A stretch of DNA of 56,309 nt from an uncultured Chlorobiaceae bacterium. GTDB taxonomy: Bacteria; Bacteroidota; Chlorobiia; Chlorobiales; Chlorobiaceae. The position numbers and the translations under genes are program-made. Positions within the stretch are counted from its first letter, which is position 1, and every line of letters begins with the position of its first letter. Location of the stretch: the NCBI GenBank assembly GCA_903908555.1, contig CAIVSG010000122.1, positions 1 through 56,309 on the forward strand, given 5' to 3'. Positions 2,177 through 40,800 of this stretch are shown piece after piece. The notes beneath the pieces were generated by a model. The model had not been told where the DNA came from, did no database searches, and worked only from the letters and a program-made list of their open reading frames with translations.

Positions 2177-2845
2177 TTAAAAGCCATTCATCAAGTCCAC
2201 ACACTCAACTGAATACTCTTCCAGATGTTTATGTGCTGCAACGTGGCAGCAATAATTTTCATCTATCAGAAGTTTTTTGATAATCCATCTTGTATTATCA
2301 AAAAAAGCACTTTCAGCATTGAGGATAACTTGTTTCAAAGGGGCCGCAAGGCCTTTACCATTAGCCTTTAAAACAGCTTCCTTTTGGGTCCAGCAATCAA
2401 AAAAAAGCAGATTGGCTTGATCTGCTTCATAGTGCTCATAAAGTGTTGCTACCTCCGGCAGCTCTTTTGAAAAATCATTGATATCTATCAAGCGAATCTT
2501 TTCAATATCAATTCCTATTGGTTGATTACCAGCTAACGCAAGGATAACGATATGTTCTGAATGAGAGATATTAAATTCCGGGCCGCCTTCAATAAAAGGT
2601 TTGCCATATTGAGACACTTTCAAAGAGTGAAATTTATCGAACCAGTTATCAGGGAAATTGTTTTGTAACGCCCTTAAAAGCAGCAACTTACCAAAAAGTG
2701 TTGCCTGCCGGTCCTCAAAACGGTTATATCGGAGTATTGATGAGCAAATTCCTGCGGGGATCAGTGCAAGATATTCTTTAAAAAGTCTTTCAGAAAGAGT
2801 ATACCCATAACGGGCAAAATATATTTGCACGCGTATTTCAGTCAT
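2177..2845 (-). CDS. 4'-phosphopantetheinyl transferase, Sfp type
   Basis: FNISHSEHIVILALAG, PIGIDIEKI, FFDCWTQKEAVLKANGKGL motifs of the Sfp/Gsp PPTase family. Confidence 0.9.
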   Translation of the reverse strand: MTEIRVQIYFARYGYTLSERLFKEYLALIPAGICSSILRYNRFEDRQATLFGKLLLLRALQNNFPDNWFDKFHSLKVSQYGKPFIEGGPEFNISHSEHIVILALAGNQPIGIDIEKIRLIDINDFSKELPEVATLYEHYEADQANLLFFDCWTQKEAVLKANGKGLAAPLKQVILNAESAFFDNTRWIIKKLLIDENYCCHVAAHKHLEEYSVECVDLMNGF

Positions 2846-16500: not shown

Positions 16501-19500
16501 CAGTCGGCAGCCGAAGCTAAAACCATAGGTTACTTTATCAACATGCTTCCTCTTGCATGCCCAGGTGCCGAATCAGACTTGTTCGAGAAATCGGTTCAAG
16601 CCATGCAGCAGAATCTTGCGGAAGCACTTCAACACTCGCTCTACCCTTTTGCCCGCATTTACGGTGATTTCCGACAGCGAGTCACGCATGTGACAACTCC
16701 AAGGCGTTATCCGCTTTTTGACATTGCTGCCACCGAAAACCCTGCCATACATACAAGTTCAGAAACAGGGTTTTATTTTTCCAGCACAGCTCTTCCTGAG
16801 CCTGGAGAGGTAAGCTATGAACTGCGACGCAATGCACCGGCACAGGATCTTGTACTGGTGCACGAAGGAGTGGATGAGGGTGGCATTGTGCTGACATGGT
16901 ATGCCAATGCCGCCATTTATACAGAGGATACCGCTCATACCTGGTTTGATTCTCTTGTAGGCTGGATGCGTTTTCTGGGAGGAACCTCTTACCAAAACGA
17001 GATGCAGCTCCCTCGTCTTCTGCCTGAAGAAGAAGAAGAGCTCGAACTATGGCAGAAGGGCCCACTCCGCTCCTGTGAAGCAGCATCATTTCCTGAACTG
17101 TTTCGACAGATATCCAAATTGCATCCTGATCGTCCGGCAATAGTAACTGATGCAGGAGTTCAAAGCTACGAAACCGTAAACCTTAGAGCCGACGCTTTGG
17201 CCAATGCTCTGCTCAATCTGCGTGTAAAGCGAGGAGAAGCGGTAGGAGTATATACGGAGCGCTCCGCTGCCCTGCCTGAAACTGTCCTCGCAATCTGGAA
17301 AGCAGGGGCATGCTACCTTCCACTGACGGCAGATCTCCCGGCAGAACGACTTGCCTTTATGGCCAAAGATGCAGATCTGCGCATAATCATTGCGCTCGAC
17401 AATCTCTCTTTGCCTCCTGAACTCACCGGCGAACGCTTTATAACCTTAAGACCTGAAGATTTTCTTTGTGATGCAGCTGATGCAGCGGAAATAAACCTGA
17501 CAATTACACCTGACGATACGGCCTATATCCTCTATACATCCGGATCAACCGGTCTTCCAAAGGGAGTTCTCCTGCTTCATAAAGGCCTGCTTAATCTCGG
17601 CCTTGGAGCATCTGAAATCCTTGGGATTACGAGTGACGACAGTTTTCTGTTGAGCTCTTCACCATCATTCGATCTATGGATAAGTGATCTGGCTGCAGCA
17701 TGGTCATCCGGTGCTGCATTGGTGCCAATAAGGCGGGAAGAGATGAACGATATTGCCGGCATGCTTTCTTTGCTCAAGAGGTTCGACGTCACGGTGGCCA
17801 CAATGTCACCATCCTATCTGCGTTTGTTCCAACACTCAGAATTTCCCGGGTTACGCGTTATTATGACGGTCGGCGAGGCTCCTATAGCTGAGGATTCGCG
17901 CTTCTACGCATCAAAACTTGAATACTATAACGGATACGGTCCAACAGAAAATACAGCAGCATCTGCAATAGGTCGTATTTTTCCACATGCAAAGCATATC
18001 TCAGTTGGAACTCCCGTTTCCAATATGGTAATTCACATCGTCGCAGAATCCGGTAAAATCCTGCCACCCGGTGCAACAGGAGAAGTGTGGGTTGCCGGAC
18101 CAGGGCTTGCTGCCGGCTATCTCAACAGGCCTGATCTCACTGCGGATGTTTTTGTAGATTTTAATGGCATTCGTTGCTACCGGACTGGCGATCTTGGCCG
18201 CTGGCTCCGGTCAGGTGAGTTGGAAATTCTCGGGCGTAGAGATTCCCAGGTCAAATTGCGAGGTCAGCGCGTTGAACTTGGCGAAATAGAATATCGTCTT
18301 GCAAGCTATCCGGGTGTCAAACAGTCTGTCGTTATCGTTGAAACACGTCCAGACCACACTCAGGCGCTCCGCTCATTTGTAACCATTGATGCTGAGACAG
18401 CAACGCCAACCCATACAGAGTGGGTACGCCATCTATCAGAAACACTTCCTTCTTTCATGATCCCGCAGTCCATCAACCGGATATCTTCCATACCCCTCAA
18501 TGCCGCCGGCAAAGTTGATAGGCAGGAGCTGCTCAACTCTATTGAAACAATTCCGTCTTCCTCCCTTGCAGATGTCATCGATAAAAACAGCTATTCGCAG
18601 CAAACCGTGCCACAAAGCGCTACAGAAAAGAGAATAGCCGAAATCTGGCAGCAGCAGCTCCATCATGAACTCGTAGCCCGTGAGGATAATTTTTTTGAAA
18701 TCGGGGGCGACAGTCTCCGCGCAATTGCTGTGATAAGCCGACTCCGTCGTGAATTCCAGTGTCATGTAAACAACCTATACGAGCATCCTGTTCTTTCAGA
18801 CTTTGCCCTTTGCTGCCGACCTCGTCCTGACCACTTGCGCACGATTATTGGAAATCTCCATACAGAGTACCTTCATGATCTTGAAATTCAGGCGTCAGTG
18901 GAGAATGATCGCAAAGAAGCGTTGCGTTCTCAACGCATCATCTATGAAAAGCGTCTTCACACTGATCTTGAGCGTGAACTCATCTCTCGCCACTCCTACC
19001 ACCATGTCCTGCTGACCGGGGCTGCCGGTTATCTTGGAAGCTACCTTTTGCGTGAACTTCTTGCCGACCAGAGAACCACCGTAACTGCTCTGGTTCGCAG
19101 CAGCGACAATCAATCGGCACGCTCAAAGCTCGGCCATGTATTGTCAGGATACTTTGGGGCCGAGGCAGGCACACTCTTAGGCGATAACTCACGCCTGAAT
19201 GTTTTGGCCGGTGACCTCCGAGATCCGGAACTTCTTCTTTCCCACTACGATTATAGCGAGCTCTCTGTTACAGTGGATGCCATTTATCACTGTGCTGCCA
19301 ATGTAAATCATATAGGCCTCTACCGTGATTTCCTTGCTGACAACGTCGATGCTACACGCAACCTTATAACACTGGCAGCACGTCGCAAGCCTGCGCCTTC
19401 TGACATTCACTTTGTCTCCACCATGTCGGTATGCGGCACTGCATTGCAAAACGAATTCAGACTCTTTACCGAGTATGACTTTGTTCCTGTATCACAGGAC

Positions 19501-20136
19501 GGCAACTACTACATCCGCACCAAACAGGAGGCCGAACGTCTGGTGATCGCTTCACGTGGGGAGTTGGCAAACGCCAGCATACACCGGGTTGGAAATATTT
19601 CTTTTGCCACCGACAGCGCCATATTACAGCACAACATCTCCGATAACGCGTTTTTCCGGCAACTGTTAGCCTTTATGCGTCTTGGAGTTGTCCCTCTTGA
19701 GCTTAAAGCATCGCTCAGCCATGTCGATGTTGTTGCCCGTTCAATCATTGCGCTTGCTGACAGAAAAAACTTAACAAATGAGATACACCATATAGAGAGT
19801 TCACGCCGAGACCGGCTTGCCGACATTATTCTTGCTGTGGAGGGAATGGAAAAGATTGTCCACACCTGCGATTTCGGTGAGTTCCTTCAAAGACTTCAGG
19901 ATGCGATTGATGAGCCGGAAATGGAATCGGCACTTGCAGAAAGTGTTGAAAATTACAACCTTCAATCTGATTCATCTATCCTGAGTAAAACACATGGAGT
20001 GGTCGTGACCTCAGACCGGACACAGTTGCTGCTTGAAAAGCTTGGGATAACCTGGCCTGAAATCCCCTCAGCTGGACAACACGCCCTTTTGAGCGCAGCA
20101 ATGAAAGCCCTGACAGAAGATGAACATCGCCGATAA
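7579..20136 (+). CDS. four-module nonribosomal peptide synthetase, A-T-C-A-T-C-A-T-C-A-T-R
   Basis: Four A domains (FTSGSTGTPKG, FTSGTTGIPKG, YTSGSTGKPKG, YTSGSTGLPKG), four carrier motifs (GGTSL, GGNSL, GGHSL, GGDSL), three C domains (HHSVVDG, HHSVGDG, HHAVGDG), C-terminal thioester reductase (VLLTGAAGYLGSYLLREL; YIRTK as YxxxK). Confidence 0.95.
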   Translation: MNYSKKIHNYFKIVALKQPDSPALITDYGIVTYAELDASAERVAMELQSRGIDLQEAVGVLTERSATLPAAFLGILKAGGVYVPMVADLPAARLINIAEQAGIRRLIVLDGIEPAPQLIEVVTSNGSSSHSDAVIRPEILTKNCHEIVPHADESSESGNLAAILFTSGSTGTPKGVMITHDACVNMVLGHIEAHNISSTDRILLSASPGFILGFRELCLPLMSGAAFVPVTRLIIDKPEHLLELMGRHLVSIAMFTPSYLHLLHRKVPEGLRCIITSGERPNADDARHYARFVDYWNIHGATEVCGTICMHRVDTEGTGVIPSGRPFSNTAVYLLDKLGNEVSNGEVGELHVIGIGVSPGYIKQPLLNAEFFVETPLGRAFRSHDLARWNSKGELEAIGRADNVVKISGQSVSLGEIELALQHHPDVKRAAVLFQNARLIACVECSDQQQTMDWRVFLQRTLPAYMIPAQVAVVPKIPISSAGKIDQKALNDIVDSLFSKELQFEGSTPPKGELEHAIAGIWEELLAIRPIMREHNFFAVGGTSLMAIAVSQRLSLLGHTIPVQMILTSLTVEALAIQIADFKENFSGLNDDTPPENIATTDQEDFSIASEIGISPAASHIVRVLSVRGSVPVPEIWQSAWSSLIDRHAALRTGFYSDENSVLRWRTLESKELSLHPSFFLDQCSSVEDAREIVGYWANKPFLLSSPPLVRAGLITIDNQNETLFWFVFHHSVVDGTSSRLIQEDLLDLLAGRPLPPAPDGIALASYAEQRYFASDRLTRDRNFWKARLDVLVKRGNRAFDDYVAEHHRQRQSLPTGKGSKPLSEHLDALTVDALARLAKTQGVGLHALLLSLLSIEIRRRGGRGDIMVGSGITIRPAGGETAIGHFVNVLPVILLQEEDMPLKALLQITQSALTETVDHGAYPAGLLYREFRQSYPELRSQSRTSLFDIALTAIPSRVCIDHESGLTLEPRILPGELENPAAGLDLSFSHEPCTENGGGLNLLLTWNPDVCTEQSAHSWLSAFAEWGRWLAEKPERIDQPIPLLLPEEKALLEQWELGKEIPRPKKRCFEIFEAIADNHPHRTAIVSKERLESFKEIDERSNGIAHSLIQAGVIRGTTVAVLTSGPADILETVLGIWKAGAVYLPLPGDYPATRLSIMAKDAGAEFLTLLDGLTIPQLLADSVKSIIHPKECKPSGKRPCIDGSTDDIAYIIFTSGTTGIPKGVPVTHAAYINAVLGVAERVVFKPEDRMSLVSSIGFDASLWELGHCLLNGITLVPVSPLMREDPWMLKHYYEEFGVTIAFHTPSYLRVSEQVKFEGLRILLTGGEAPNHNDLKYHADRSEFWNFYGPTEAAIVVSGGRVEIDHDQDAPITVGRPLPNVRISIRRSDGSQVPPGVEGELWLGGVGISQGYVNRADLSAECFVSTPDGSFYRSGDFGRWTADGQIEVYGRMDHQIKLNGQRVELGEIEQTLCTHPAILNAVVVVEELEKGVKVLKAFIQPKAEELPGEASVLAFLAERLSAYMIPASIISLATIPLTPSGKVDRDAILTIAGKQDNTVVREMPQGPFEQNIAGIWSDVLGQPVARHDNFFALGGNSLLAVTLAHRITESLNRKVSARALFAAPILSAFVEHIESLPVFQEPEITALTDLASEGEKEFWTAESAGLDTRTFTIPVCFLVNGEFSPDRWQSAWSTLMERHEGLRTYFEDDGSGELKRRVAKEIDGRLEFAAVETTPAALAHIRQRQLTSLSMSVAPLWRAGLVEACDEDKRFFWLALHHSVGDGQSISTLSDELANVLTGGVLSSPGGSGMVFASREQTYFASIDANNDLLYWKSALQAIPVAAFEEWPLDIGRSSKIPSGNHRLELLLDSRTSEGLRAIARSHKTTLHALILSLLALEVRRRTRRSDIVIGTTASVRESASDSKIIGYGVNMLPLHLRPGAGQCFGDLLRETQHTLSEALQHVRLPFSHIYRAFWNDHPEIRNPQRYPLFDIAVTENPGSTEDELSRRFTRAMTATESISYERTDASPGQDMVLMHENLHGGELLLQWHVNAAIYTEETARIWLYALRGWARWFAEDALRSAQPLPQLLPDEEKLLFNWGHGETVERPRLRFHELFEMIADRSAQADSPAVITCNSTLSYRDLDREANIIAHALLLKGVKRRSIVAVLTGRSPNLPAAVLGIWKTGGIFLPLSSDLPEERSAFMALDAGASFLIALDGVPLPELLADGLPEALRPEKLGESFREQHGTRAISIGEPDDTAYILYTSGSTGKPKGTLISHRSYVNMVLGAAGILGLSARDRYLMFASPSFDVSLSDLGVPLSCGAAICQAPNEIIESPNRFYHFLREGSVTVADITPTYLALFEEIELPSSLRILVTGGEPPVPADVQRYARKLSYFNAYGPTENTITSTMGVLDGEERGFVSAGKPLPNTSVYICDDHGDLLPPGLTGELWLGGMGISQGYLNRAELTQASFTERPWGHCYRTGDLGRWHTDGTIEIIGRIDDQVKINGIRIELGEIEYAVAKLPAVSQAVALLVEQPGVQKSLWAFVRLKTGAQLPDTAGWQEQLREHLPSHMIPSGVIPVPSIPLAVSGKVDRSALLAFLEHCPVQSGMTPPQNELELCIAEVWAAVLGKTTIHRKDNFFALGGHSLLAIAVAHQLEKALGCEVPARELFAEPTLAGFAERVRIAHLSETGLNLSTDLATEGEREFWTAEQAGLDTIGFNIPLKLFVHGNTLPPEQWQTLWNELINRHEALRTSFTEDEPGVLRRVVSKQLNKTLELQLFSSNSEADRYIGTQVSEPFSMSTPGLWRAGLAEVEGGQPIFWFVMHHAVGDGLSLGILVDELSALIRGKTLAPPAIGFDYSAGKEAAYLESKRAESDSAYWQGVVADLVKRTPDALDEWPLDKPRANARSATSCPGSHCFRTRLDHATAQALRGLAQRNNATLHALMLTVLGLEVRRRTRRSGFLLGTAASTRQSAAEAKTIGYFINMLPLACPGAESDLFEKSVQAMQQNLAEALQHSLYPFARIYGDFRQRVTHVTTPRRYPLFDIAATENPAIHTSSETGFYFSSTALPEPGEVSYELRRNAPAQDLVLVHEGVDEGGIVLTWYANAAIYTEDTAHTWFDSLVGWMRFLGGTSYQNEMQLPRLLPEEEEELELWQKGPLRSCEAASFPELFRQISKLHPDRPAIVTDAGVQSYETVNLRADALANALLNLRVKRGEAVGVYTERSAALPETVLAIWKAGACYLPLTADLPAERLAFMAKDADLRIIIALDNLSLPPELTGERFITLRPEDFLCDAADAAEINLTITPDDTAYILYTSGSTGLPKGVLLLHKGLLNLGLGASEILGITSDDSFLLSSSPSFDLWISDLAAAWSSGAALVPIRREEMNDIAGMLSLLKRFDVTVATMSPSYLRLFQHSEFPGLRVIMTVGEAPIAEDSRFYASKLEYYNGYGPTENTAASAIGRIFPHAKHISVGTPVSNMVIHIVAESGKILPPGATGEVWVAGPGLAAGYLNRPDLTADVFVDFNGIRCYRTGDLGRWLRSGELEILGRRDSQVKLRGQRVELGEIEYRLASYPGVKQSVVIVETRPDHTQALRSFVTIDAETATPTHTEWVRHLSETLPSFMIPQSINRISSIPLNAAGKVDRQELLNSIETIPSSSLADVIDKNSYSQQTVPQSATEKRIAEIWQQQLHHELVAREDNFFEIGGDSLRAIAVISRLRREFQCHVNNLYEHPVLSDFALCCRPRPDHLRTIIGNLHTEYLHDLEIQASVENDRKEALRSQRIIYEKRLHTDLERELISRHSYHHVLLTGAAGYLGSYLLRELLADQRTTVTALVRSSDNQSARSKLGHVLSGYFGAEAGTLLGDNSRLNVLAGDLRDPELLLSHYDYSELSVTVDAIYHCAANVNHIGLYRDFLADNVDATRNLITLAARRKPAPSDIHFVSTMSVCGTALQNEFRLFTEYDFVPVSQDGNYYIRTKQEAERLVIASRGELANASIHRVGNISFATDSAILQHNISDNAFFRQLLAFMRLGVVPLELKASLSHVDVVARSIIALADRKNLTNEIHHIESSRRDRLADIILAVEGMEKIVHTCDFGEFLQRLQDAIDEPEMESALAESVENYNLQSDSSILSKTHGVVVTSDRTQLLLEKLGITWPEIPSAGQHALLSAAMKALTEDEHRR

Positions 20137-21430
20137 GGAGTCAACAACAATTGAGCTTGATGAAAGACAACGTATGAAAACATTGCATGAACAGTACGAA
20201 TCAGAAGAGGCTGCTGAATATCTTCCAATCCAGCAGTGGTTTATAAGGAAAGAGCTTAAGGATAGAAATCACTTTAACCACTCATTCCTGATTCATGTTG
20301 GTGAAACAATAGATAAGAAGAGGCTTCAGAGAGCGCTGGAGAAGCTGAACAGTCTGCATGACTCACTGAGGGCGATTTACCATGGAGGAAAGCAATATTT
20401 AAGGAAAGAGAGCCGGATAGCTCTAATAAAAGAATTGAATATCAAGGGTAAAAACGAAGAGGAGATATTCAAAGAGCTTACAAGTTGGCAAAACGGATTT
20501 GACATTGAGAAAGGGTATGTCTGGCAAAGTGGTATTTTAAGAGGGTATGAAGATGGCAGTGAACGCATATTTCTGGCTTTTCATCATATCATATTCGATG
20601 CGGCAAGCTGGTCGATAATACGCGAAGACCTGAAAGCACTCTATGAAGGCAAGGAAGTAGAAAAAAAAGGAAGCAGTTACCGACAATGGGTGGATGCAGT
20701 AAGAGAGTACGGCAAAAGTGCTGCCATGGAAGAGAGAGCGTATTGGGGCGCGGTGCAAAAAGAGGATGACAACTATAAGGTGGATTGGAATAATTTCACG
20801 GAACAAGATGACAGCGAGTTACGATCTACAAGAGTAGATATTTCATCAGAGGCAGTCAAGAGGTTGAACTTGATAAACAATGATGATAATAAGGTCGATA
20901 TCAATGATGTACTGCTCGGCGCTCTTGGTTATTCGCTTTATGAGGTAACCGGAAAAAAGAAAAACTGGATAACACTGGAAAAACAGGGACGTGAAGCAAT
21001 AGATGACCATCTTGACATAAGCCGTACCGTTGGATGGTTCACAACACTCTACCCGGTGTATCTCAGCATCGGAAAAGATATCGAAGAGACCATAGTCATC
21101 AATAAGGAGTCGATAACAAAAGTCCCGCATAATGGAATAGGATACGGAGCTCTATACGGTTACGACAACATGCCGAAGATTCTCTTTAATTATATTGAGA
21201 GTATTGCTGGAACAGAAGAGCTTCTTTGGCAGATACGCATGGGAGAGGCAGCCGGCGAAAGCATGTGTCCGGATAACAGGTTCGGGAATATAGTCGATAT
21301 CAACGGAATGCAGAGAGATGGGAAAATAGGGTTCTGGATTGACAGCTGCCTGAAAGAAGATAACCACGAACTGCTGTGTAAAGCTTTTAAGAGAAATATT
21401 GAGGCAATAACTCTGTATCTTCACCCATAA
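20120..21430 (+). CDS. stand-alone NRPS epimerization-domain protein
   Basis: All seven E motifs recognisable: PIQQWF, HHIIFDAASW, DVLLGALG, EKQGRE, SRTVGWFTTLYPV, PHNGIGYG, FNYIE. No A, T or other domain in the 436-aa ORF. Overlaps the NRPS 3' end by 17 nt. Confidence 0.85.
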   Translation: MNIADKESTTIELDERQRMKTLHEQYESEEAAEYLPIQQWFIRKELKDRNHFNHSFLIHVGETIDKKRLQRALEKLNSLHDSLRAIYHGGKQYLRKESRIALIKELNIKGKNEEEIFKELTSWQNGFDIEKGYVWQSGILRGYEDGSERIFLAFHHIIFDAASWSIIREDLKALYEGKEVEKKGSSYRQWVDAVREYGKSAAMEERAYWGAVQKEDDNYKVDWNNFTEQDDSELRSTRVDISSEAVKRLNLINNDDNKVDINDVLLGALGYSLYEVTGKKKNWITLEKQGREAIDDHLDISRTVGWFTTLYPVYLSIGKDIEETIVINKESITKVPHNGIGYGALYGYDNMPKILFNYIESIAGTEELLWQIRMGEAAGESMCPDNRFGNIVDINGMQRDGKIGFWIDSCLKEDNHELLCKAFKRNIEAITLYLHP

Positions 21431-21485: not shown

Positions 21486-23135
21486 GTGAATCTACTTCGC
21501 CTGCTGCAATTAATAGAAAAAAAATCCTTTAACCGTCTTATACTCGGTGCCTCAGTATCTGCATTGAGTACCACAGGTATTCTCGCACTCGTTACCTATG
21601 CAGCGCAGAAAATTGACTTCACAAAAGAAAAATTTGTTGATCTCCCCATTGCCGGACTGTTTGTTGTATGCGTCATAATCTACATCATATCTGACAGTCA
21701 GATGATAGCCCGGTTTGCAGCAGATATTGAACAGGCGATTGATTATTTGCGGATGCAGCTTATCAATCGTCTTCGTCATGCTGATCTCTGGAAACTTGAA
21801 AACTTTGGACAAAGCAGGCTGTTCGGAAGTATCACCCAAAGCTGCAAGATCATTTCATCGAACTCTCATTATCTGGCCATGGCATCACGATCAGTTATAC
21901 TGACCGTGACCATTCTCCTCTATATCGCAACAGTTTCACTTTTTACCTTTTTCCTTCTGACGTTTTTACTGATTGCGGCTGCAGCGGTCTATTACAGATT
22001 AGGTTTATCTGTAGAGAAATGTCAGGCGGATCTGGCCTCTGACGAGTCAAAACTTTTTGAATGCGTCTCAGACCTTCTGGACGGATTCAAAGAGCAACGC
22101 CTCTCCAGCGCTCATAGTCGAGCCCTTGGTGATGATTTTGGCAAATTGTCGACACACACTGTTACAACTCGAAGTGAACTGCACCGGCAAAGCTGGAGCC
22201 AGTTCGTATTCGGTGAAACTATGGTTCACGTTATGCTTGGACTAGTTGTTTTTATTGTACCGATATACTCCCCTGCCGTCACAAAAGAGTTGGTAAAAAT
22301 ATCAGCAGCAATCCTCTTTATGATCGCGCCTATTTTTGGACTGATGCAGTCTTTGACAGTGTTAAGAGCTGCTAAAGCTGCTGCAAATAGCATGATGGAG
22401 CTCGAAGAAGAGCTTAAAGCACTTGAAGAACAAGCCAGTGATTCGGAACATGATACAATCCCCGAAAATTTTTCTGTGATCAGAATGGCTAATATTGAGT
22501 TTTCGTTTCCGTCGCAATCCGGAGAGAGCTCTTTTACTATGGGGCCGCTGAATGTAGAGATCAAAAGAGGTGAAATTATATTTGTAACCGGTGGCAATGG
22601 TTCAGGAAAATCAACCTTCATTAAACTTTTGACTGGTCTCTATCATCCTGTTCGCGGTATACTGAAAATTGACAACAGGGTGATCTCGTTCGACATGCTT
22701 TCAAATTATCGAGCTTTAATAGCACCCGTCTTTTCAGACTTTCACCTTTTTTCACAACTCTATGGTATCGAAAAAATCGACAAGCTGGCAGCTGAAGATC
22801 TTTTGAACTGGATGGAGATGGAGCATATCTCAGGAATCAAAGGAAACAGATTCACACGAACCAATCTTTCCACCGGACAACGCAAACGCCTTGCTCTTGT
22901 GGCTGCGCTGCTTGAAGCAAAACCGATCCTTGTTCTTGACGAATGGGCTGCAGATCAGGATTCAATCTTCCGGAAAAAATTTTATCACGAATTGTTACCG
23001 GAACTACAACGTCGAGGTCTCACAATTATCGCCGTGACTCATGATGACCGCTATTTTGATGCCGCCGATCGCATACTCCACCTTGAGGAAGGCCGGATAA
23101 CTGAGTTACTGACAAACAACAGGGAGGGTCTATGA
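21486..23135 (+). CDS. cyclic-peptide-export-type ABC transporter, fused TMD-NBD (SyrD/PvdE-like)
   Basis: N-terminal TM helices; Walker A GGNGSGKST; LSTGQRKRLALV; LVLDEWAADQD; VTHDDRYF typical of the SyrD/PvdE family. Confidence 0.9.
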   Translation: MNLLRLLQLIEKKSFNRLILGASVSALSTTGILALVTYAAQKIDFTKEKFVDLPIAGLFVVCVIIYIISDSQMIARFAADIEQAIDYLRMQLINRLRHADLWKLENFGQSRLFGSITQSCKIISSNSHYLAMASRSVILTVTILLYIATVSLFTFFLLTFLLIAAAAVYYRLGLSVEKCQADLASDESKLFECVSDLLDGFKEQRLSSAHSRALGDDFGKLSTHTVTTRSELHRQSWSQFVFGETMVHVMLGLVVFIVPIYSPAVTKELVKISAAILFMIAPIFGLMQSLTVLRAAKAAANSMMELEEELKALEEQASDSEHDTIPENFSVIRMANIEFSFPSQSGESSFTMGPLNVEIKRGEIIFVTGGNGSGKSTFIKLLTGLYHPVRGILKIDNRVISFDMLSNYRALIAPVFSDFHLFSQLYGIEKIDKLAAEDLLNWMEMEHISGIKGNRFTRTNLSTGQRKRLALVAALLEAKPILVLDEWAADQDSIFRKKFYHELLPELQRRGLTIIAVTHDDRYFDAADRILHLEEGRITELLTNNREGL

Positions 23136-24751
23136 GAATATTCAAAACCGTAGTGCGTGAAATTCCTGAAAATCTTACATCTGTTTTATTCATCAATTCC
23201 TTGTCAGCGATTGCAGCGACTTCAATCGTTGGAGTTGTTTCCGCGGCCACAAAAGAGGCTGCGAACGGCAAAATCAGCGGCCGCCTCCTCCTGATGTTTG
23301 CGATCAGCGCACTACTGTTTCATTTTACGCAAATCCATATACTGGTAACCTCATCAATTGACAGTGAGCGACTGATTCATAAGCTGCGGGTTCGTCTTTT
23401 CAACCTTGTTCGCAAAACTGACCTTGTAACGATTGACCGGATTGGTCGCGCCAACCTTCAAGGCGTGCTTACGCAGGATACGCAAATCCTTGCAGAAGTG
23501 CTGCCGATGCTGGTGATTGGTTTTCAGCATGCTATAATACTGGTCTTTCTTGCCATCTATCTTGCCTGGCTATCACCGTTTGCTTGTATACTTGCATTCG
23601 GGCTTGCGGGGCTTACGGTTTCAGTACGCTTCAAGCGCGTCCATTCATTGAGAACATTAATGCAATCGTCGGCAACAGCAGAAGGAAGTGTTTTTGATGG
23701 TCTCACGGAACTCCTGAATGGATTTAAGGAAGTCAGGATGAATGGACCACGAGCAGACGGGGTAATCAAGACTCTTCGTGAAGCTTCTCATATGTCAAGG
23801 AAAAAAAACTCATTGCTTAAAGCTCAATGGGGCCGAAATTATGCCATCATTGAAGCCATGCTCTATTCTTTAGCCGGATTGATCGTGTTTGTTGTCCCCT
23901 TGTTCGTTCCTGGTTTTTATGCAGTGGCTCTGCCTGCAACTATTGCCGTTCTATTTATAGCCGGACCAGTGAGTACCGTATCCTTTGTAACTCCGATGTT
24001 AACACAAGCTGAGTTGGCACTCGAAAACATCGAGACCATGGAGCACAATCTTAGTGCTGCCGCAGAAGCCGCTGCTTGTGAAGAGATTGGCCAGCTTGAC
24101 AACGATCCTTTATCGATTGCGCTGGATGATGTAACACTCTCATACCATGATGCGTCAGGTTCCCCGTTATTCTCTGTCGGACCACTAAACGCAGAGTTTA
24201 ATGTCGGCCGTATCACCTTTATTACCGGTGGAAACGGATCAGGCAAATCAACACTTTTGCGCCTGCTTACAGGCCTTATCCCACTTGATAGCGGTTTTAT
24301 TGTTGCCAATGACAAACCTGTAACAACTGAGCAGATGCAGGACTACAGGAACAGAATTTCCGCAATTTTCTCTGATTTTCATCTTTCACGACGACTCTAC
24401 GCTGTAACAGACCTGGACCCGGTAAAAATAAGCTCCCTCTTGGAACGCCTGGAAATGCAAGAAAAGGTTACTGTTCGCGATGGCTCCTTCAGCACGATAG
24501 ATCTCTCAACAGGACAACGCAAACGCCTGGCACTTATTGTTGCGGAGCTTGAAGACAAAGAGGTCTTTGTTCTTGACGAATGGGCTGCAGACCAGGACCC
24601 TCACTTCCGTCGCATCTTTTACGAAGAGCTTCTACCTGACCTCAAGGCTCGAGGCAAAATTATCATCTGCGTAACTCATGACGAACGATGGTTCCACATC
24701 GCGGATCGGGTTTATAAAATGAATGAAGGAAGGATCGAAGAACAGCAGTAA
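23132..24751 (+). CDS. cyclic-peptide-export-type ABC transporter, fused TMD-NBD, second subunit
   Basis: Walker A GGNGSGKST; LSTGQRKRLAL; VFVLDEWAADQDPHFRR; CVTHDERWF. ATGA overlap with the preceding gene. Confidence 0.9.
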   Translation: MRIFKTVVREIPENLTSVLFINSLSAIAATSIVGVVSAATKEAANGKISGRLLLMFAISALLFHFTQIHILVTSSIDSERLIHKLRVRLFNLVRKTDLVTIDRIGRANLQGVLTQDTQILAEVLPMLVIGFQHAIILVFLAIYLAWLSPFACILAFGLAGLTVSVRFKRVHSLRTLMQSSATAEGSVFDGLTELLNGFKEVRMNGPRADGVIKTLREASHMSRKKNSLLKAQWGRNYAIIEAMLYSLAGLIVFVVPLFVPGFYAVALPATIAVLFIAGPVSTVSFVTPMLTQAELALENIETMEHNLSAAAEAAACEEIGQLDNDPLSIALDDVTLSYHDASGSPLFSVGPLNAEFNVGRITFITGGNGSGKSTLLRLLTGLIPLDSGFIVANDKPVTTEQMQDYRNRISAIFSDFHLSRRLYAVTDLDPVKISSLLERLEMQEKVTVRDGSFSTIDLSTGQRKRLALIVAELEDKEVFVLDEWAADQDPHFRRIFYEELLPDLKARGKIIICVTHDERWFHIADRVYKMNEGRIEEQQ

Positions 24752-24761
24752 TAGTGTCAAC

Positions 24762-27700
24762 TTAACGATTAAATGTTGACAATCTGCGATTGATTTCCTC
24801 CGCGATAAAATTCACGTGGGGCAATGATAGCATCGACGAGTGATCACCTGGTGAAAGCAGAATATCCAGACCTCCGATAGCCAGCGGAGACCATGCCTGC
24901 TCGGGGTTTTCCGCCAGTAATTCTCTTTGTTCTTCTGCCTTGAAGAATAGAATTCGTGTATCGTGCGGCTCGGGGTTCCAGTTCTGCATATTGGCAATGT
25001 TCTGACTAAAGACACGAAGAAGGCTTTTTACATCTCTTACCGAAGCTTGAGGCATCATTTTTTTGCGTATCTCATCCAACAGGAGCGCCACTCTTTCTTC
25101 GTGGTTCAGTTTCTGCATTCGAGCAAGATCAGAGGCATAATCCCCGTCTGGCATGTCAAGCGAGAACATCCATGCGCAAATTTCAGCCTCTGTATCTATC
25201 CGATCAGGCATATGTCCTGGTCCGGGAGAATCAAAAAGTGTGACCAGATGTGCCTGGTGACCTGACATCTGATAAAGCCGGTCAAGTTCGTAGCAGACAA
25301 GCCCTCCGTAAGAGCTGCCGGCAAGCATGACAGGTTTATCAATTCCGGCTTTCAAAAGGCATGCATAATAGTGTTGAGCCTGACGGCGAATCCCTTCGAT
25401 GGGAGGAGAATCGTCCCATAACCCTGGAGCTTGCAGTCCGTAAACGGGATGGTTGGTAGCCAGTGCTTTCAGAAGGTCAACGTAGATGAAAATACCTCCG
25501 CCTACAGCATGAACAAGCACTATAGGTGGCAGTCGGTCATCGCCTTTGGCAAGAAGTACCAGGCAGAAGTCGCTCATACCATCAGCAGTTGTTTGCCCAC
25601 CACCTGCATCAAGAAGCGTGGCTATTTTTGCCGGCGTCCTCTCCTGCATAATCTGTCGTGGAGTCAAAGGAGTACCGAAAGCATCCCTGATGTTTGAGGC
25701 AAGTCGTACTGCCATGAGCGAATTTCCGCCGCAAAGAAAAAAATCTCTATGACGCCCCAATGAAACCGGACCAAGAAGTTTTTGCATGATGGCAATGATG
25801 CGCGCTTCTGTTGGCGTAAGGTTCGAAAGAACAGCCGGTTGATCATCATCACTCTCTTCGCCTTCTTCAGAAAATGATGAGGTCGTTAATGATGGTGCAT
25901 TCAGCCAATAACGCCTACGCTGAAAAGCATAACCGGGCAGAGGAATCCGCTCTCCTCTGGAACCCTGCAAAGCAAAGAGCTTTTCCAGATCGATAGGCAA
26001 ACCAGCCGACCACAACGTTCCTGCACTTTCGAGTATTCGCCTCCACTCAGCATCGGGATCGGCATTACCATCAAAGCTTGACACAATAGCCCGGTTGTCC
26101 AGTCTGCGTGCATCTCGCAAGGCAATACCTCCTAAGGTGTGCGATGGACCACACTCGAGAAAAGCAAGTCCGTGACGTTCCCAGAGCCTGCCGAGTCCAT
26201 CTGCAAATCGCACGCATTGCCGCAGATGCTCCGTCCAATAATCAGGACTTTGCAATTGAAGGGGCTCCAGATAACGACCCGTTATGTTTGAAACAATTGC
26301 GATGCCTGGAGTCGGCGGACGACGAGGTACGGAGGCAATCGCTTCACGAAAGGGCTCAAGAGCCGGTTGCATGAGCGAAGAGTGGGCTGCCAGATTTACA
26401 CGCAGAAGCTTGCACTGAATCTGCTCCTTTTTCAGCTGTTTTTCAAATAGTGCTATATCTTCCGCTGGGCCGGCTACAACAATCTGGTCAAACGCATTGA
26501 CCGTAGCAATATCCAGACATCCTGGCAGTTGCGTGGCAACCTCCGCCTCAGTCAGGCTCACAGCAAGCATTGCCCCTTTCCGTTGAGCCTCCATGAGTCC
26601 TCCGCGCAGAGCGACAAGGTAGAGCGCATCCGAGAGGTTGAAAACTCCTGCAATGCAGGCTGCTACCCATTCTCCAAGGCTGTGGCCGATAAGCACTGAA
26701 GGCGAAAGGCCAAGATCCATCCAGAATTGCGCCAGTGCGTATTCAAGTGCAAAAATAGCGGGCTGACCTATCCGGTGATGATCAAGTTGGGCAGCTGCGC
26801 TCTCATCTTCCGGGGAAGCAAGAAGCAAGCTGCGGATATCTAGCCCGAGGATAGGTTGAAGTATATCGGCACACTGATCAATACAGGCTTTGAACTTTGG
26901 CGCACGACGGTAGAGAGCGAGGCCTATTCCGGGTTTCTGTGCTCCCATGCCAGGGAACATAAACGCAACACTTTTTGCACGATCCACGGTCAGGAGAGGC
27001 TCAGAAAGCAGCTCTCCGGCTTCTGAGGAAGTTGAGTTACAGAGCGCTCCCCTGCTTTCCCAGTGACGCCGTCCAAAGGCCAGGGTGTGCGCTACGTTCC
27101 CGATACTTGCATCCCCATGCCGCTTAAACCAGTCTGAGAACAGCGCGGCATTAGCCTGAAGTGCCTTTTCGTTCTTTCCTGAAAACAAGAGCAAACGCAG
27201 TGTGCCGGGGGTAACGGCAGGGGCACTCATGCGAACAGGAGGCTCTTCAAGCACAGCGTGTGCGTTCGTACCCCCGATACCGAAGGAGCTCACTGCTGCA
27301 CGCAGCGGCGTACCATCCCCTTTCCATGCACAGGTCTGTGCGGAGACCTGAAAACCGTTGTTGACAGGCCATTGTATCTGCGGATTGGGATTCTTGAAAT
27401 GGAGCGTTGGTACAAGAGTGCGGCGATAAAGACAGAGTGCGGTTTTGATTAATCCGGCAGCACCGGCAGCCGCATCAAGATGACCGACATTGGTCTTAAC
27501 CGACCCAAGGAACATTGGCAGCATTCTCTTGCCATCAGCTGCATAATTTTCCACAAGTGCCGCCACCTCAATTGAGTCACCAAGCTGCGTAGCAGTACCA
27601 TGGGCTTCCGTATAGAGTACGGTTTGCGATTCAACTCCTGCTCGTTGAAGAGCGTCGCGAATCACAAGGGACTGGCCGCTGATGCTTGGTGCTGTATAGC

Positions 27701-31865: not shown

Positions 31866-34800
31866 AGTTCCCCCTCTTCCCATCTTTCGCTGCCAGTGAC
31901 AACACTCAGCCCTTCGTCAACTTCCGGCACAAGAATCTCTTCTGCCAGAAATGCTATCGTCGACTTTTTAAAGAATCTCTCCATTGAAATCTGACATCCG
32001 CAGAGCTCCTCGATTCTTGCAGATGCCTGGAGGGCGGAGAGAGAATCTGCTCCCAGTTCGATAAGGTCGTCATCTATACCGAGACCTTTGTAACCAAGTA
32101 CTTCACCCCATACTTCGACCATGAGCATCTCGTTTTTTGTACCAGCAACCCTCAAAGGAGTGCTCTGTTCCGGTCGAGGCTTTCGTGAGGATTCCTGATC
32201 TTCTCCGGAAACTGGGCTCTCTCGTTGAACGGGCAGTAAGACAGGACGCTCAGCGTATTGCCACTCTACCGTGCTGATAGAGAGCACTGGTTCACGGGAG
32301 GCAAGTGAACGAAGGAATACCTCAATACCCTCAGAGGGTGTCATGGCAAAGGAATTCAGAGAAATCGCACTTTCCTGCCCTGCCTGTTGCAGTTTGTCTC
32401 CGGAGCCCAGACGCAGAAGAGTGTACCCTTCAACCTGCACAAGGATTCGGCCTGACTCATCATAAAGGTCAATATCAAGCTTGATCATCCTATCACTGTT
32501 TAGACGCATGCGGACATGGCTGACGATGCACGGCACCAGTGCAGAAAAAACTTTCAGTTTTTCATACCGCCAGGGCATAAGCTCCATACCTTCTTCGACA
32601 AAAGCGATGTAGTATGAAATGGCTATATCAAAAAGGGCCGGATGCAGAGGGTGATCAATGAGGTCGTTGAGCAATTGTGTCGGCAATTCGAGCCTTGCAA
32701 GAGCTTCATCACGGCCTTTGCGGAAATCACACTTTATCTTCCATCTAGACTCTCCTTTGATGACGATGCTTGGCGCTTTTTCATTTGTCGGCGTCTGCTG
32801 TGCTCCTACTCTCTCAGTGCAGCGGGCCTCGATATCCTCGAGAGATGCCAGTGAAGGAAGTTCAGTAATCGTTGCAAGTTTTGCACGGGCATGTTCGTAC
32901 TGTGCCGCTCCATCATTGGATTGAAGAATGATTTCCTTGCCATTGCGGAGCACCTGCACCCTTCTCTTTGCCTCGCCGCCATAGATCATTGGCTGACTCA
33001 GCGTAACGTTATCGAGTTCAGTCGGATCCGGGGAATCAAGAGCCTGCATGAAAAGTTCCAGGAAAGCGGTGCCAGGCAGCATGGCAACATCATTGACAAG
33101 GTGTTCGCCCCATGGCCAGAAAGTGTCTGGAGAGATAACCCATTCGCGTAAAAGGGTGAGCTCTCCTACACTGCTTATTTTTCTCTGGTTCGACCTCACA
33201 GCCATCCCTACTGAGCTCCAACTGTCCCACTGGACGCTTGTCCAGATACCAGGTCGCAAACGTGACTGTGCTCTTGCAAAATCGTCAAGCCAGCTGTTCG
33301 CTGCTGTATACGCGGCCTGCCCCAATCCGCCAAGCGATGCAGTGAGAGATGAACAGAGCAGAACAAACCCGGGTTCACGTCCCCGTAAAGCTTCAAAGAG
33401 AGCTATTGTTCCGGAGACTTTCGCACGCAGGACATGCTCAATCTCCTCGAGGTTCGTTCTTGCAATGAGGCTGCCGCCGGCAACTCCGGCAGCATGAATA
33501 ACGCCGTCAATGCCTCCCCATTTCGCAACGATATCGTTTACTAAGGCAGATAACGCCTCAGCGTCGGCGATATCAATAGCCGCTGTCATCACTTCTGCAC
33601 CCTCAGCCTCCAAGCCACGGATAGAGTCGCTCTCAAATAAATCAGGGTTGTGGCGTGAAACTAAAACAAGACGCGCTTTGACTGCACGGGCAAGATGGCC
33701 TGCAAGTGTAAGCGCTATACCGCCAAGTCCTCCCGTGATCAGGTATACCCCGCCCTCCTTAAGGCAAGCACTGCCGATCAGTGGACTTTCAGGAGCCAGC
33801 TTCACATGGGTGTGTCGCCAAAGCTGACCATGTGAGAGCGAAAATGTTCGATCACTCGGGAAAAGGGAGGGAAGAGCACAAGCTGTATGGAACGATGAAG
33901 AATCGGAACTATCCCGTTCGATATAAAGCAGCTGAGTTTTTATAGTGCTGTACTCATGGGGAATAACTGAACAGGCAGCATTCAGATAGGCAAACGAAGA
34001 ATCATGCACTGCATCCGGGCCGGTCTCATGCTGCGGGGCAAAGAGTATCAGGTTCATATCTTTCCGGCCCTTTGCCATCGCCAGAATACGTATATCACCC
34101 AAAAGAAGATCAAGACGACGAGCGAAATCGGCTGGTCCGCCAGAGTCATAATCCAGTGCCGAAAAATGCCAGCATATCAAAGGCAGCTCCTCATTTCGGG
34201 CAATGGTGGATATCCTCTTTTCAAGATCCTCTCCAGACCTCATACTGATAAAAGGGATTCCTGCTTTACGCAAAGCACCGAGCCAGCGCATGGCTACCGG
34301 GCCACCATGGTGAACAAGCAGGATGGAAGAACCCGTAAAATCAGGTAACCGCACTAAAGGTACGCGCTCACATCCCTGAAAATAAAACCACTCGTCCAGA
34401 GGCAGCTTTACAGCCGTATCGTGCTTGCTTGACACATTCCCGGCTTCCTCAGGCTTCGCTTCAACCCAGTAGAGCTTGTGGTCAAAAACGTATGTCGGAA
34501 GAGGGATGCGATGAACGGGGCCCCCGGGCAGAAGCGTTGAGGCTTCGTCCGGTTTTCCCGCCAGCCAGGCCCTGGAAAAAGCGTAGGCCTGCTCCAATGC
34601 GCTCTTCTCTCCACCAATCGATTGCTGAGGCAAACCTGTTCCGGATACTACCCGTCCATCGCGATCCGTGCGCAATATGTCAACTTCACTGAGCGAGCGG
34701 AGTGAAGCTATGACCTCGTCACGTGAATCGGCTATAAGAACAGTTCGCATTTGAAAACACCGGCGTCCCTCTGCAAGCGTAAACCATATATCTGCAGCAT

Positions 34801-37800
34801 CAAGATCCGGATATTTTTCTATGTGCACTGCCAGTGATTCGGCCAGGGCTAGGAGCGATGGTATGCTTCGAGCCGAAAGAGGCAGGCACCACACACTCTG
34901 CCGGGGTGATAGAGAGCTCCTCTTCCTTGGTGCTTCCTCAAGGATGGCATGGGCATTTGTCCCTCCCATCCCGAATGAGCTTACACCGGCTCGCCTCAGT
35001 CCGTTCACCGGCCAGGGAGTGAGCTTGTTGGCAACACGAAAAGGGGTTTTATCGAAGTCAATTTTTTTGCTCGGATGATCGCAATGCAATGTTGGAGGTA
35101 TGATACCGTATTCCACCACAAGCGATGCCTTAATTAATCCCGCCACCCCGGCGGCAGTGTCGAGGTGGCCGATATTGCTCTTTATCGAACCGATCAGGCA
35201 CCCACCCGCCTTGGGTTTGTCAGGCGAATAAGCTTCACTGAGGGCCTCTATCTCAATAGGGTCTCCAATCGGAGTACCTGTGCCGTGTGCTTCAACGTAC
35301 CGGATATCACGAGAGCTGATTCCAGCCCTTTCCAGAGCTGTCCTTATAACGTCCCGCTGGCGGTTAACTCCGGGAGCTGTAAATCCTACCTTGTCTGCAC
35401 CATCATTATTGATTGCGCTTCCCTTGATAACTGCATGAATGGTGTCGTTATCAGCAAGGGCATCTTCCAGTCGCTTCAGGACAACTATTCCAGCGCCGCT
35501 TCCGCCGACTATTCCCGCCGCATCCTCCGAGAAAGCACGGCAGTGCCCGTCGGGTGAAGAGATGCCTGCTGCCTGATAAACGTAACCATGTATTCCCGGT
35601 TGCAACGTAACACCGCCGGCAAGCGCCATGTCGCACTCTCCGCTCAAAAGAGAAGCAGAGGCCATGTGTATGGCAACAAGAGATGTCGAGCATGCCGTGT
35701 TGATGTTTACACTCGGACCGCGCAAATTCAGTTTGTAGGAAACCCGGGTAGTAATAAAATCTTTATCGTTGGCGAGACTGACGGCATAGCTGTCGGCGCC
35801 GTAGCCATGGGTGAGCCTGGAAGAAAGGTTGTTTATCAGATAGAGGGTCATACCCATACCACCAAAAACGCCAATTTCTCCAGCGAAGCGGCCGGGATCG
35901 TAACCGGCATTTTCAAGCGCGTGCCACGATTCTTCCAGAAAGACTCGCTGCTGGGGATCAAGGATTTCGGCTTCCTTTGGTGTATAGCCAAAAAACTCAG
36001 CATCAAAAAGTTTTGTCCCTTCCATGTAACCGTGAGCGGGAACATAGTCCCGTTTTTCGCGGATATTCATCGGTATACCTTCCGCCGCAAGCTCCTCCTG
36101 AGAGAAGAATCGTATGCTCTCCCTCCCGGCGACCAGATTATCCCAGAGCTCCTCGACGTTTGCAGCTCCAGGAAAACGCCCGGCCATACCGACGATTGCG
36201 ACATCATTCCCCCGGGGGCGTTTGACACGCCTGAAGGTCTCGGGGATTTCGCCTCGCACTCTTTTTGCCATGCGGGCCACAGTCGGGTGTGCAAATAAAT
36301 CTACAAGCGGCACATTGACACCAAGTTCTATCTGTAATCTGGTGTGCACCTTCAGCAGCAGAATGGAATGCCCACCGATATCAAAAAAGTTTTCATTAAG
36401 ACCAACATCAGACTTTCCAAGAACCTCTGCCCATATCGCTGCGATATTTTCTTCCAGTGCATCAGCAACTGATAATAAGGCACCCTCGCTCTGACGAATC
36501 ATTTCAGGTTCAGGCAGCGCTGAAATATCAATCTTGTTATTGCCTTTCCTCGGAAATTCAGGGACAAAAACAATCGAAGCCGGCATCATATACTCAGGCA
36601 GCCATTGCGCAAGCCACTCCATTAATGTTCCTTGCGAAGGAGCATCATCGCCCGAAGGTACACAATAGGCTATAATCCGGTTGCCCAATCGATGATCATC
36701 TATCAACATAACGAGAGCCTCGAGGATGCCTGCATGGCGGACAAGAAGAGCTTCGATTTCGCCGGGTTCAATACGAAAGCCTCGAATTTTTACCTGCCGG
36801 TCAAGACGTCCAAGAAACTCTACGCGGTTATCAGGCCCGATGCGCACCCTGTCACCAGTCCGGTAAAGACGAATGCCTCCCCCTCTTCCATTTTCCAGCC
36901 ACCGGCCACCTTTTGCTGTTCGGCACCAATTGCGGAACGACAATGCCGTTCGTGCCTCATCAGCCACATAACCCTTTGCCAGACATAACCCACCGATGCA
37001 CAGTTCACCGGAAATACCAAGGCCAGCCTCCCTACCCTCATCATCAAGCACACGAAGGATCCGACCCGGCATAGGCAAGCCGATAGGAACAACACCGGAG
37101 GTTGTATCTAGGCTGGACTTTTTTGTAATAACATTGAATGTAGAGGTCACAACAGCCTCCGTAGGGCCATAGGCATTAATCAGCGTTACTTCACCCAGTG
37201 GGCCTGCAAGCCACTCTTTTGCCAATGAAACCGGCATGGCTTCCCCTCCGCAAATGACCAGGCGAAGGCTGGAAGGAACATAATCAGGGCGGCTTTTCCA
37301 GAAAAAAAGCAGTTCGCGCAGATATTGGGCAGGGATGTCCACACAGGTTACCCGAAAGGTTGAAATCCGGCTGCACCAGTCGTCAAGAGTCCAGAGCTGT
37401 GCATCACGGATGAGAGCTCTGCCGCCGGCAAGAAGTATGGAAAAGAGCTGTTCCCACGATGCATCGAAATATGATGCTGCAAAGACAAGAGAACAGTCCT
37501 TCGACGTTAGCCCATAGGCGAGAACAGCACTGCGGCAGTGTGTTTCAAATGCGCCATGACTCACAGAGACCCCTTTGGGTACTCCTGTGGTTCCGGAGGT
37601 GTAGATTATGTATGCCGTCTCTGCCGGATTAGTTTTTGAGGCTCCCGTCACCAATTCAGCTTGAGGTGCTGTATGACTGTTTACTGATCGGCATGTTGGA
37701 TGATTCCACCCGGAAGCATGAGAAAAACCATCGTCATGCCAGAGAACGAGAGCTCGGGAATTGTTGATGATATAATGCAGCCGCTCTTTAGGGATATCGA

Positions 37801-40800
37801 TATCAAGCGGAGCTACAATAATCCCCTCCAAGAAAGAGGCAAGGGCTGTAACCGTCCATTCCAGTCCAGGCCTGCATGCCAGTGCCAGAACATCTCCCTG
37901 TTTCAGCCCGAGACAGACAAGCTGGCCACGACGATGCGCGACAAGACGCAGCAATTGAGCATAACTAGTTTCAACGCCGCCAGAGATAATTGCCGTGCTT
38001 TCTGGACTTTTTCCGGAGTGTTCAAAGATCCAGTCAGTAATAACATGCCCTGCATTTTCAAGAAGTTCTCCCTGAAAAACCTTTTCCAATTGCTCCTGCA
38101 TCGATGCAGGCATAAGGTTAAGTTCCCCGAGATGCCCTTCAGGATTCTCTACAAGTTCATGCAGGATCATTGTAAAATGATCCTGCATGCTTATGATGCT
38201 TTTTCTCTCCCAGGCATCTGATGAATATTCGATTGTGCTTATACCTCCACCCGGCTCCATTAGGATGTCCATTGTCAGCTCAAACATTGCTCCGCTGCGT
38301 GATAAATACAGCGGTTCCACGGATAGTTCCTTACTGGCCGGCTCAGCAGAATTATCGCTTACCATATACGAAAGAGAGGCCTGGACAAGGGGCGGTCTTG
38401 ACGGAGTGCGTTGAAAGCAGAGTGCTTGAACAAGGTGGTCAAATGATACTTCGCGACTCAGAAGCATTTCACGCACAGAATTTCCGGTGCGTTTCATCAC
38501 CTCCTTCATAGTCGGATTCCCGCTGAAATCAAGCCTGACTATACAGGTATTGACAAAAAAACCAACCGTACGTTCAAAGCGTGAAGATGAACGAAGTGAG
38601 GTGGGAATTCCTACCAGAATATCTTCCTGACCGGTATGCAGGTGGAGCATGCTCCCGAAGGCTGTCAAATAAAGCATAAAAGGACTTAACCCTGCACCTT
38701 TGGCAATTGCCGAAACACGATTGTGCAACTCCAGATCATCATATTTATTGACAAGAAGCCCCCCCCTGTATGAGAACGTTTCGGGAAGCTGCTTATCAAA
38801 CAGGAAGTCAATATGCGTCGGAGCACCCGATAATCCTTTGATACGAGACTCAAGCTTCTGGCGGTATCCACTACTTTGCAGAAAAGCGGTCTCATATTTC
38901 ACATATTCATCATAAGACTCAGTTGGCGCTGGAAGTTTTGGGGTACCATCTTCCAGAAACGCATAGTAGAAATCGAAAAGTTCGGAACGAAGAACATCGA
39001 GTGACACGCCGTCAGCGTTGAGGTGATGCATGTCGATCAGAAGTGCATGCTCCTGGGGGGCAACGGTATAGATGCATACTCGAAATAGCGGACCTTCATC
39101 AATCTGGAACGCAGCGGCATGATTTTCCAGATAGTGCGTCTGCCATTCTACGCCTGCTTTCGCTGCACTGAAGTCATGCTCGTAAATAACCAGCGCATCT
39201 TGGGATAGAAGAGCTCTTTGCGGTTCTCCTCCGATAGTTGGAAATATGGTTCGAAGGCCATCGTGACGCATCCAAAGAGCCTCTATAGCCTTTTTTAGCA
39301 AGATCACGTCGAGGCTGCCTCGGAGTATCATGTGCAGGGGAACAATGTAGGCTGTGCTTTCAGGCTCCAGGTTCCTGACAAGCCAAAGACGTTCCTGAAG
39401 AGTTGAGAGAGCTATGGTACTTAAGCCCCTAGAGGCACCGGGCTTCTTCCTGACGACTTCGTTGACGAGCTCGATAAGGTTTTCCTGCTGAGCCCTAAAC
39501 CCTTTTTTCTGCTCTCTTCTTCCGGGCAGATTACGTTCTGAAGGTCGGGTGTCGGAAGTTGACGATTTTTGCAAGCTTCCACTCTGGCTGATACCAGCAG
39601 CCAGGCCTGCTACGGTAGGATTCTCAAAAAAATCAGCCATTTCCAGTCGGACACCAAGATCTTCCTGAATACGCGACATCATCCGTATTACGTTCAAGCT
39701 ATGTCCGCCAAGGACAAAAAAATCGTCATCCAGACCAATAGCCGTAAGGCCAAGAATTTCTTCCCATATTTTCAGTAAAGACTTTTCCTGCTCAGTATAC
39801 ATTATGACCTCTTCCTGGTCCTGCACGAGATCCTCAGCATCGCAAGGATCAGGTAATTCCTCGTACTCAACCTTCCCTGCGATGTTCAGCGGGAGCATCT
39901 CCATGCGGATCCAACTGTTCGGAATCATGTAGTGCGGAAGCTTTAAGGAGAGAAATCGTCGGAGCTCACGCGGTTCAAATTCCAGGCGTGGAACGACATA
40001 GGCCACAAGCGTATCGTTGCTTGCCCGCTTTTGGACAACGGCGGTCTCAACCGAAGGGTGCATTTTAAGCACAGCTTCCACCTCGCATATTTCAACACGG
40101 TAACCACGAATCTTTACCTGCGTATCGTACCTGCCGTGAAATTCGATGTTGCCATCCGACAAGAGACGCCCAAGATCACCGGTCCGATAGAGACGTTCGC
40201 CCTCGCTCAACGGGTTCATGACGAAACGTTCAGCAGTCAACTCCGGGTGACCCAGATAGCCACGAGCAAGCCCGACACCGGCAATATAGATTTCTCCAAT
40301 GGCTCCGATCGGCATTGGACGGCGATCTTCATCAAGAATCAGAACGCGCATGTTCCCAATGGCCTTGCCGATTGAGAGACGATCGGCGGAAAACTCCGTT
40401 CCGGCTTCCAGTCTGAGATAGGTTGAGATTATCGATGTTTCTGTAGTACCATAAGCATTAACAAAGGTGCGGCTTCGAACGTGGTATGCCGCATCGGCTG
40501 GATTGGCTGCGTCTCCCGAAGTTCCCAACAAACGTAACGGAGTCATATCCACCTTCCCCAAAGTGCTCAGGTAGGAGGGTGGCAATAAACCAACGGTGAC
40601 ATTCTCAGTGCGGAGAAGATCGAGAAAGCGGCTTGAATCAAGAATAATCTCCTTTTTTGCAATGACTAACACTGCTCCCGAAGCAAAAGCAAGGAAATAC
40701 TCCTTTATAGAAGCATCGAACATTGGACTTGCAAAGCCAAGGATACGGTCAGTTGCACTCACTTCCCATGCTCCGATGAGTTCAGTGATCGTATTGACAA

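Follow-up and report, generated by a model that had tools for sequence, protein, structure and literature searches.

A conserved AT-less PKS module in a hybrid NRPS-PKS assembly line of green sulfur bacteria and other hosts

The PKS module of P0002, an NRPS-PKS protein of an uncultured Chlorobiaceae bacterium, has no AT. P0002 is encoded in a stretch of 56,309 nucleotides, analysed as a whole and here called the window. Judging from orthologous clusters, the gap is an old and conserved feature of the cluster family, which the preliminary description of this DNA had not seen. We favour, with a probability of slightly more than one half (about 0.52), a working AT-less module derived from a cis-AT hybrid ancestor, in an assembly line whose last module keeps its own AT and whose malonyl donor is most likely FabD, the housekeeping malonyl-CoA:ACP transacylase. 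The few AT-less hybrid modules whose AT appears to have been lost without a dedicated substitute would thereby gain a conserved family found across phyla. Such a cluster is unusual in green sulfur bacteria, and a literature search on their natural products returned nothing relevant. Moreover, there are two AT candidates per genome, which turns malonyl supply into a choice between borrowing from fatty-acid synthesis and sharing an AT within the line.

Domain layout and absence of the AT

P0002 (31862-42658, minus strand, as are all features of the protein given below) is a single uninterrupted open reading frame of 3598 amino acids, for which domain calls give the order C-A-T-C-A-T-KS-KR-DH-ACP. 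The second adenylation domain (36509-38038) lies immediately upstream of the T-KS. By Pfam and motif reading, the ketosynthase KS1 (34928-36202) has intact TACSTS, EAHGTGT and KSNIGH motifs and ends with GMGGTNAHAILEEAP (34972-34928); the KS-AT linker domain (PF16197/PF22621 in Pfam) follows at 34694-34900, and the post-AT motif LPTYVFDHKLYW occupies 34501-34466. The preliminary description had located both the KS end and the post-AT motif correctly. At the site of the missing AT (34502-34693), a short hairpin, DILRTDRDGRVVSG, and a helix, SALEQAYAFSRAWLAG, replace about 290 amino acids. The module continues with a ketoreductase (33209-33754; TGGLGGI and S-Y-N motifs intact), a dehydratase placed after it (32339-33145; H...P motif present) and an ACP (31934-32146) with the motif LGADSL, kept in six of six orthologues. 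The order of ketoreductase then dehydratase (32339-33754) is the reverse of the usual one; it recurs in locus L010, and locus L015 has the usual order.

Profiles, motif spacing and a modelled fold agree on the gap. Pfam finds ketoacyl-synt N and C, KAsynt_C_assoc, a CurL-like KS-AT linker, KR, PS-DH and PP-binding in P0002, and did not find Acyl_transf_1 in the protein with the cut-off relaxed to E = 1. From the KS end to LPTYVFDHKLYW there are 142 residues, which hold the linker and the post-AT tail and no AT. The spacing from GTNAH to PxYxF is 154 amino acids in P0002 and 144-158 across the AT-less modules of the six orthologues, against 443-451 in the partner module (KS2), which has an AT. 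In the same motif comparison, GHSxG is missing from every AT-less module and present in every partner module seen. An AlphaFold2 model of the 601-residue KS-linker-tail piece, made with 16 sequences (pLDDT 84, pTM 0.90), shows the KS, the linker domain, the hairpin, the helix and then the tail, with no AT fold. Its top PDB match is the AT-less KS2 of OzmN (4wky; 47-48% identity, TM 0.85-0.91), and further best matches are OzmQ KS1 and ClbI KS-AT. The earlier claim that no AT lies between the KS end and the post-AT motif thus stands, and the HMM search that might have revealed one returned none.

Conservation of the AT-less module

The search for orthologues covered one genome per species and required KS, linker and tail within one stretch. 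Beyond the window, five loci carry the AT-less module (L003-L007; 98, 87, 67, 64 and 59% identical), spread over distant bacteria: two other Chlorobiaceae (98% and 87%), a member of the Opitutaceae (67%), one of the Azospirillaceae (64%) and the Verrucomicrobia bacterium ADurb.Bin122 (59%). Each runs from the KS into the linker, KR and DH with no AT, and then to the partner gene. In each of the five clusters whose contigs reach far enough, a partner with KS-AT comes directly after the AT-less protein; the ADurb.Bin122 contig stops within the partner's KS, so that the partner's AT is out of view. Because orthologous clusters share the same AT-less module, the gap is, on this comparison, neither damage nor misassembly, and the arrangement is stable and probably working.

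The module occurs in three of the 98 Chlorobia genomes searched. Among the matches listed from a plasmid collection there were only KSs 48-54% identical and no orthologue. Among the compiled loci, 86 of 97 KSs are followed by an AT; the rest are the six orthologues, two KSs where the contig ends and three of the Enhygromyxa locus L030. In one further Chlorobia genome (G048, 86% complete), a partner-like KS-AT protein lies at the edge of a contig (L128), and no AT-less KS was found elsewhere; its position at the edge makes this case uninformative about the malonyl donor.

Ancestry of the ketosynthase

The best reading of the gap, on the evidence of the KS tree, is that a cis-AT-type hybrid NRPS/PKS module lost its AT, because KS1 sits among cis-AT hybrid ketosynthases and a grouping with trans-AT sequences is rejected. 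The tree (86 rows) is a quick one with few trans-AT references, on which it was rooted. The six orthologous KSs form one clade (support 100) within a 65-row hybrid clade (support 100), in which most KSs are followed by an AT. This places them apart from the canonical trans-AT reference KSs (4-5 references, four from solved structures), and forcing the six together with those KSs makes the tree 93 log units worse (AU p 0.003). Other AT-less KSs also fall inside the hybrid clade: OzmN KS2, OzmQ KS1, L126/L127 from Opitutales and one KS of L030. The data neither favour nor reject a constraint joining the six with OzmN KS2, L126 and L127 as one AT-less group (AU p 0.43).

The preliminary description had proposed the same loss on the strength of the recognizable linker and tail. 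The cis-AT ancestry is borne out by the tree; the proof offered is insufficient, since trans-AT modules keep both elements. Similarly, the Pfam score of the KS1 linker (50.6 bits with the CurL-like model vs 32.1 with the RhiE-like one) proves nothing by itself, because the partner's linker also scores better with the CurL-like model and trans-AT modules retain linker and tail. The top whole-chain PDB score, that of the structure 7zma, was not taken as evidence of trans-AT kinship: it sums two KS domains (323 + 334 bits), against 557 bits for the single KS of 4wky.

Eight loci from other Chlorobia genomes (L099-L106 in G029, G033, G036, G056, G057, G072, G079 and G086) encode proteins of 2261-3194 amino acids, mostly about 3190, whose KS has no recognized AT behind it and lies on a very long branch of the tree (1.94). 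They perhaps represent another kind of synthase, iterative or PUFA-like.

Candidate malonyl donors

Whole genomes were searched with the Acyl_transf_1 profile. The window's genome (G000, estimated 81% complete), two Chlorobia genomes with the cluster (G001/G076, 98%; G002/G043, 100%) and the Opitutaceae genome (G003) give two matches each, the partner's AT and an FabD-sized open reading frame of 306-320 amino acids; in the latter three, the search thus found no dedicated stand-alone AT. In the window's genome, the second match reaches 320.6 bits with TIGR00128 (cut-off 260.9) and lies between fabH and fabG in an fabH-fabD-fabG operon (gene names read from sequence). The Azospirillaceae genome (G004) has additional ATs. 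Two belong to other large proteins; a third, a frame of 508 amino acids, has neighbours that resemble malonate decarboxylase genes and was for that reason rejected as a trans-AT. Since the genomes with the cluster offer only two candidates, the donor would be either FabD or the AT of the partner. The preliminary description had seen in the window no AT other than the partner's, and at genome scale FabD alone joins it.

The partner protein P0003 (24762-31883, minus strand) has the order TubC_N-C-A-T-KS-AT-T-TE, and its AT (26127-26963, minus strand; GHSLGEW at 26687-26667) is the only PKS AT in the window's genome. The earlier suggestion was that this AT loads both its own carrier and the ACP of P0002 across the subunit interface, which we regard as a serious possibility, if one we would put below even odds. 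The AT directly follows the AT-less protein wherever the contig is long enough, and the 22-nt overlap of the two genes, together with the TubC_N docking domain at the start of P0003, suggests that the proteins sit together. GHSQG is typical of methylmalonyl ATs; the partner's AT has GHSLGEW without GHSQG, and malonyl specificity is therefore likely. A precedent exists in Plt: an aureothin AT has been shown to serve more than one carrier, and on that model the AT of Plt module 1 has been proposed to supply module 2 (PMC11411704). On the other hand, P0003 needs an AT for its own module anyway, which makes its presence uninformative; docking would bring the P0002 ACP to the C domain of P0003, about 1,600 residues before the AT; and among the clusters examined none separates the two donors. 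If the AT were truly shared, the line would represent a stable intermediate between cis-AT and trans-AT synthases, kept across green sulfur bacteria, Verrucomicrobia and Alphaproteobacteria, an interpretation that we hold only tentatively.

We place FabD slightly ahead of the partner's AT as the donor, because the precedents for it come from experiments and from the lines most similar in architecture (see below), and because the P0002 ACP would dock far in sequence from that AT. The AcpP-like LGADSL of this ACP points the same way as weak evidence, the motif being common in PKS ACPs. A point against FabD is that, unlike in the barnesin and PipC cases, the same line holds another AT that could do the loading.

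We infer an active module, malonate as its extender, FabD as its donor and the type of product. A dipeptidyl chain from the two NRPS modules would be handed to KS1, malonate would reach the ACP of the AT-less module in trans, and KS1 would extend the chain by two carbons. Through the KR and DH, the last amino acid would become a vinylogous (alpha,beta-unsaturated gamma-amino) unit, before the chain moves to P0003. FabD would supply the malonyl group, with the AT of P0003 as an alternative or backup. The window also encodes a phosphopantetheinyl transferase (2180-2845, minus strand) that probably serves the carrier domains.

Two other explanations fare far worse. Domain loss is a common route of decay, and the loss of the AT might have inactivated the module, so that the chain passes through unextended, or the cluster may be in decay; the D that replaces the usual G in the window's DH motif would fit. 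We consider this very unlikely, as the KS, KR and ACP motifs are intact, the reading frame has stayed open in six clusters, the most distant of them 59% identical, the size of the gap is near-constant and two orthologues (L004 and L005) have a regular DH motif. A canonical trans-AT module whose dedicated AT was missed in an incomplete genome is the least probable reading and largely refuted: the window's genome is 81% complete and linker and tail are normal in trans-AT modules too, but KS1 lies outside the trans-AT clade, such an AT is absent from the two more complete Chlorobia genomes and the Opitutaceae genome, and the extra AT-like frame of the Azospirillaceae genome sits within an apparent malonate decarboxylase operon.

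Neighbouring genes

Several other genes of the window, all on the plus strand, were observed alongside this line. A second large NRPS (7579-20136) has four A domains, starts with an A domain and ends with a reductase domain (NAD_binding_4), and contains no PKS part; a stand-alone condensation domain (20120-21427) follows it. Together they may form an assembly line of their own, on the strand opposite to P0002 and P0003. Beside the assembly-line genes lie two ABC transporter genes in a row (21486-24748), which perhaps export the product. In addition, the window of this green sulfur bacterium encodes a protein with a legume-type lectin domain and a C-terminal PEP-CTERM sorting motif (1047-1913).

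Comparison with known systems

The best structural match is KS2 of OzmN from the oxazolomycin line, an AT-less KS of the same hybrid clade as KS1, in what we take to be a trans-AT PKS with a dedicated AT. Of the marks of a canonical trans-AT line, P0002 shows the absence of an integrated AT and the retained linker and tail; it does not show a dedicated AT or a KS of the trans-AT clade. Compared with cis-AT hybrids, it has the KS ancestry and lacks the integrated AT.

FabD-dependent lines, such as those of barnesin and PipC, share with it an AT-less module after NRPS modules and no dedicated AT, but here FabD is not the sole AT candidate. In the barnesin A synthetase BrnE/BrnF of Sulfurospirillum barnesii, expression experiments in E. 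coli indicated FabD for the AT-less module (PMC13096860). As here, two NRPS modules precede an AT-less KS/KR/DH module, the host is an anaerobe, the cluster has a phosphopantetheinyl transferase gene, and the genome has FabD and no dedicated AT gene (PMC13096860). A TE ends the barnesin line, whereas here P0003 (C-A-T-KS-AT-T-TE) follows and brings the second candidate AT; the KSs of the two systems are compared by description only. For PipC (pseudotetraivprolide/detoxin-rimosamide), FabD malonylates the ACP in vitro, with kinetics measured (PMC12828459). This module, too, is an AT-less PKS module after an NRPS, with an AT-docking-type linker and no trans-AT in the genome; its architecture and product differ, and no cis-AT module is described in the line (PMC12828459).

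According to a review (PMC5577590), trans ATs from primary metabolism appear to serve the didemnin and thalassospiramide pathways. These are hybrid lines making gamma-amino acid units, as the P0002 line would; they come from alphaproteobacteria and are likened here by description. The haliamide cluster hla is another mixed line, with some PKS modules AT-less and others with an AT, for which a free-standing AT of the malonate type, encoded elsewhere in the genome, has been proposed to fill in; it differs in having two AT-less modules, other chemistry and another host (PMC6274090). In two Opitutales genomes (G104 and G290; loci L115, L116, L126 and L127), another line likewise combines an AT-less KS of the hybrid clade with KS-AT modules, and a whole-genome search found in these genomes only cis-ATs and an FabD-sized frame, and no dedicated AT. 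An AT-less module beside cis-AT modules is therefore not rare. With both kinds of module in one line, the P0002 system belongs with the mixed cis/AT-less PKS-NRPS hybrids already known, of which it is a further example in unusual hosts.
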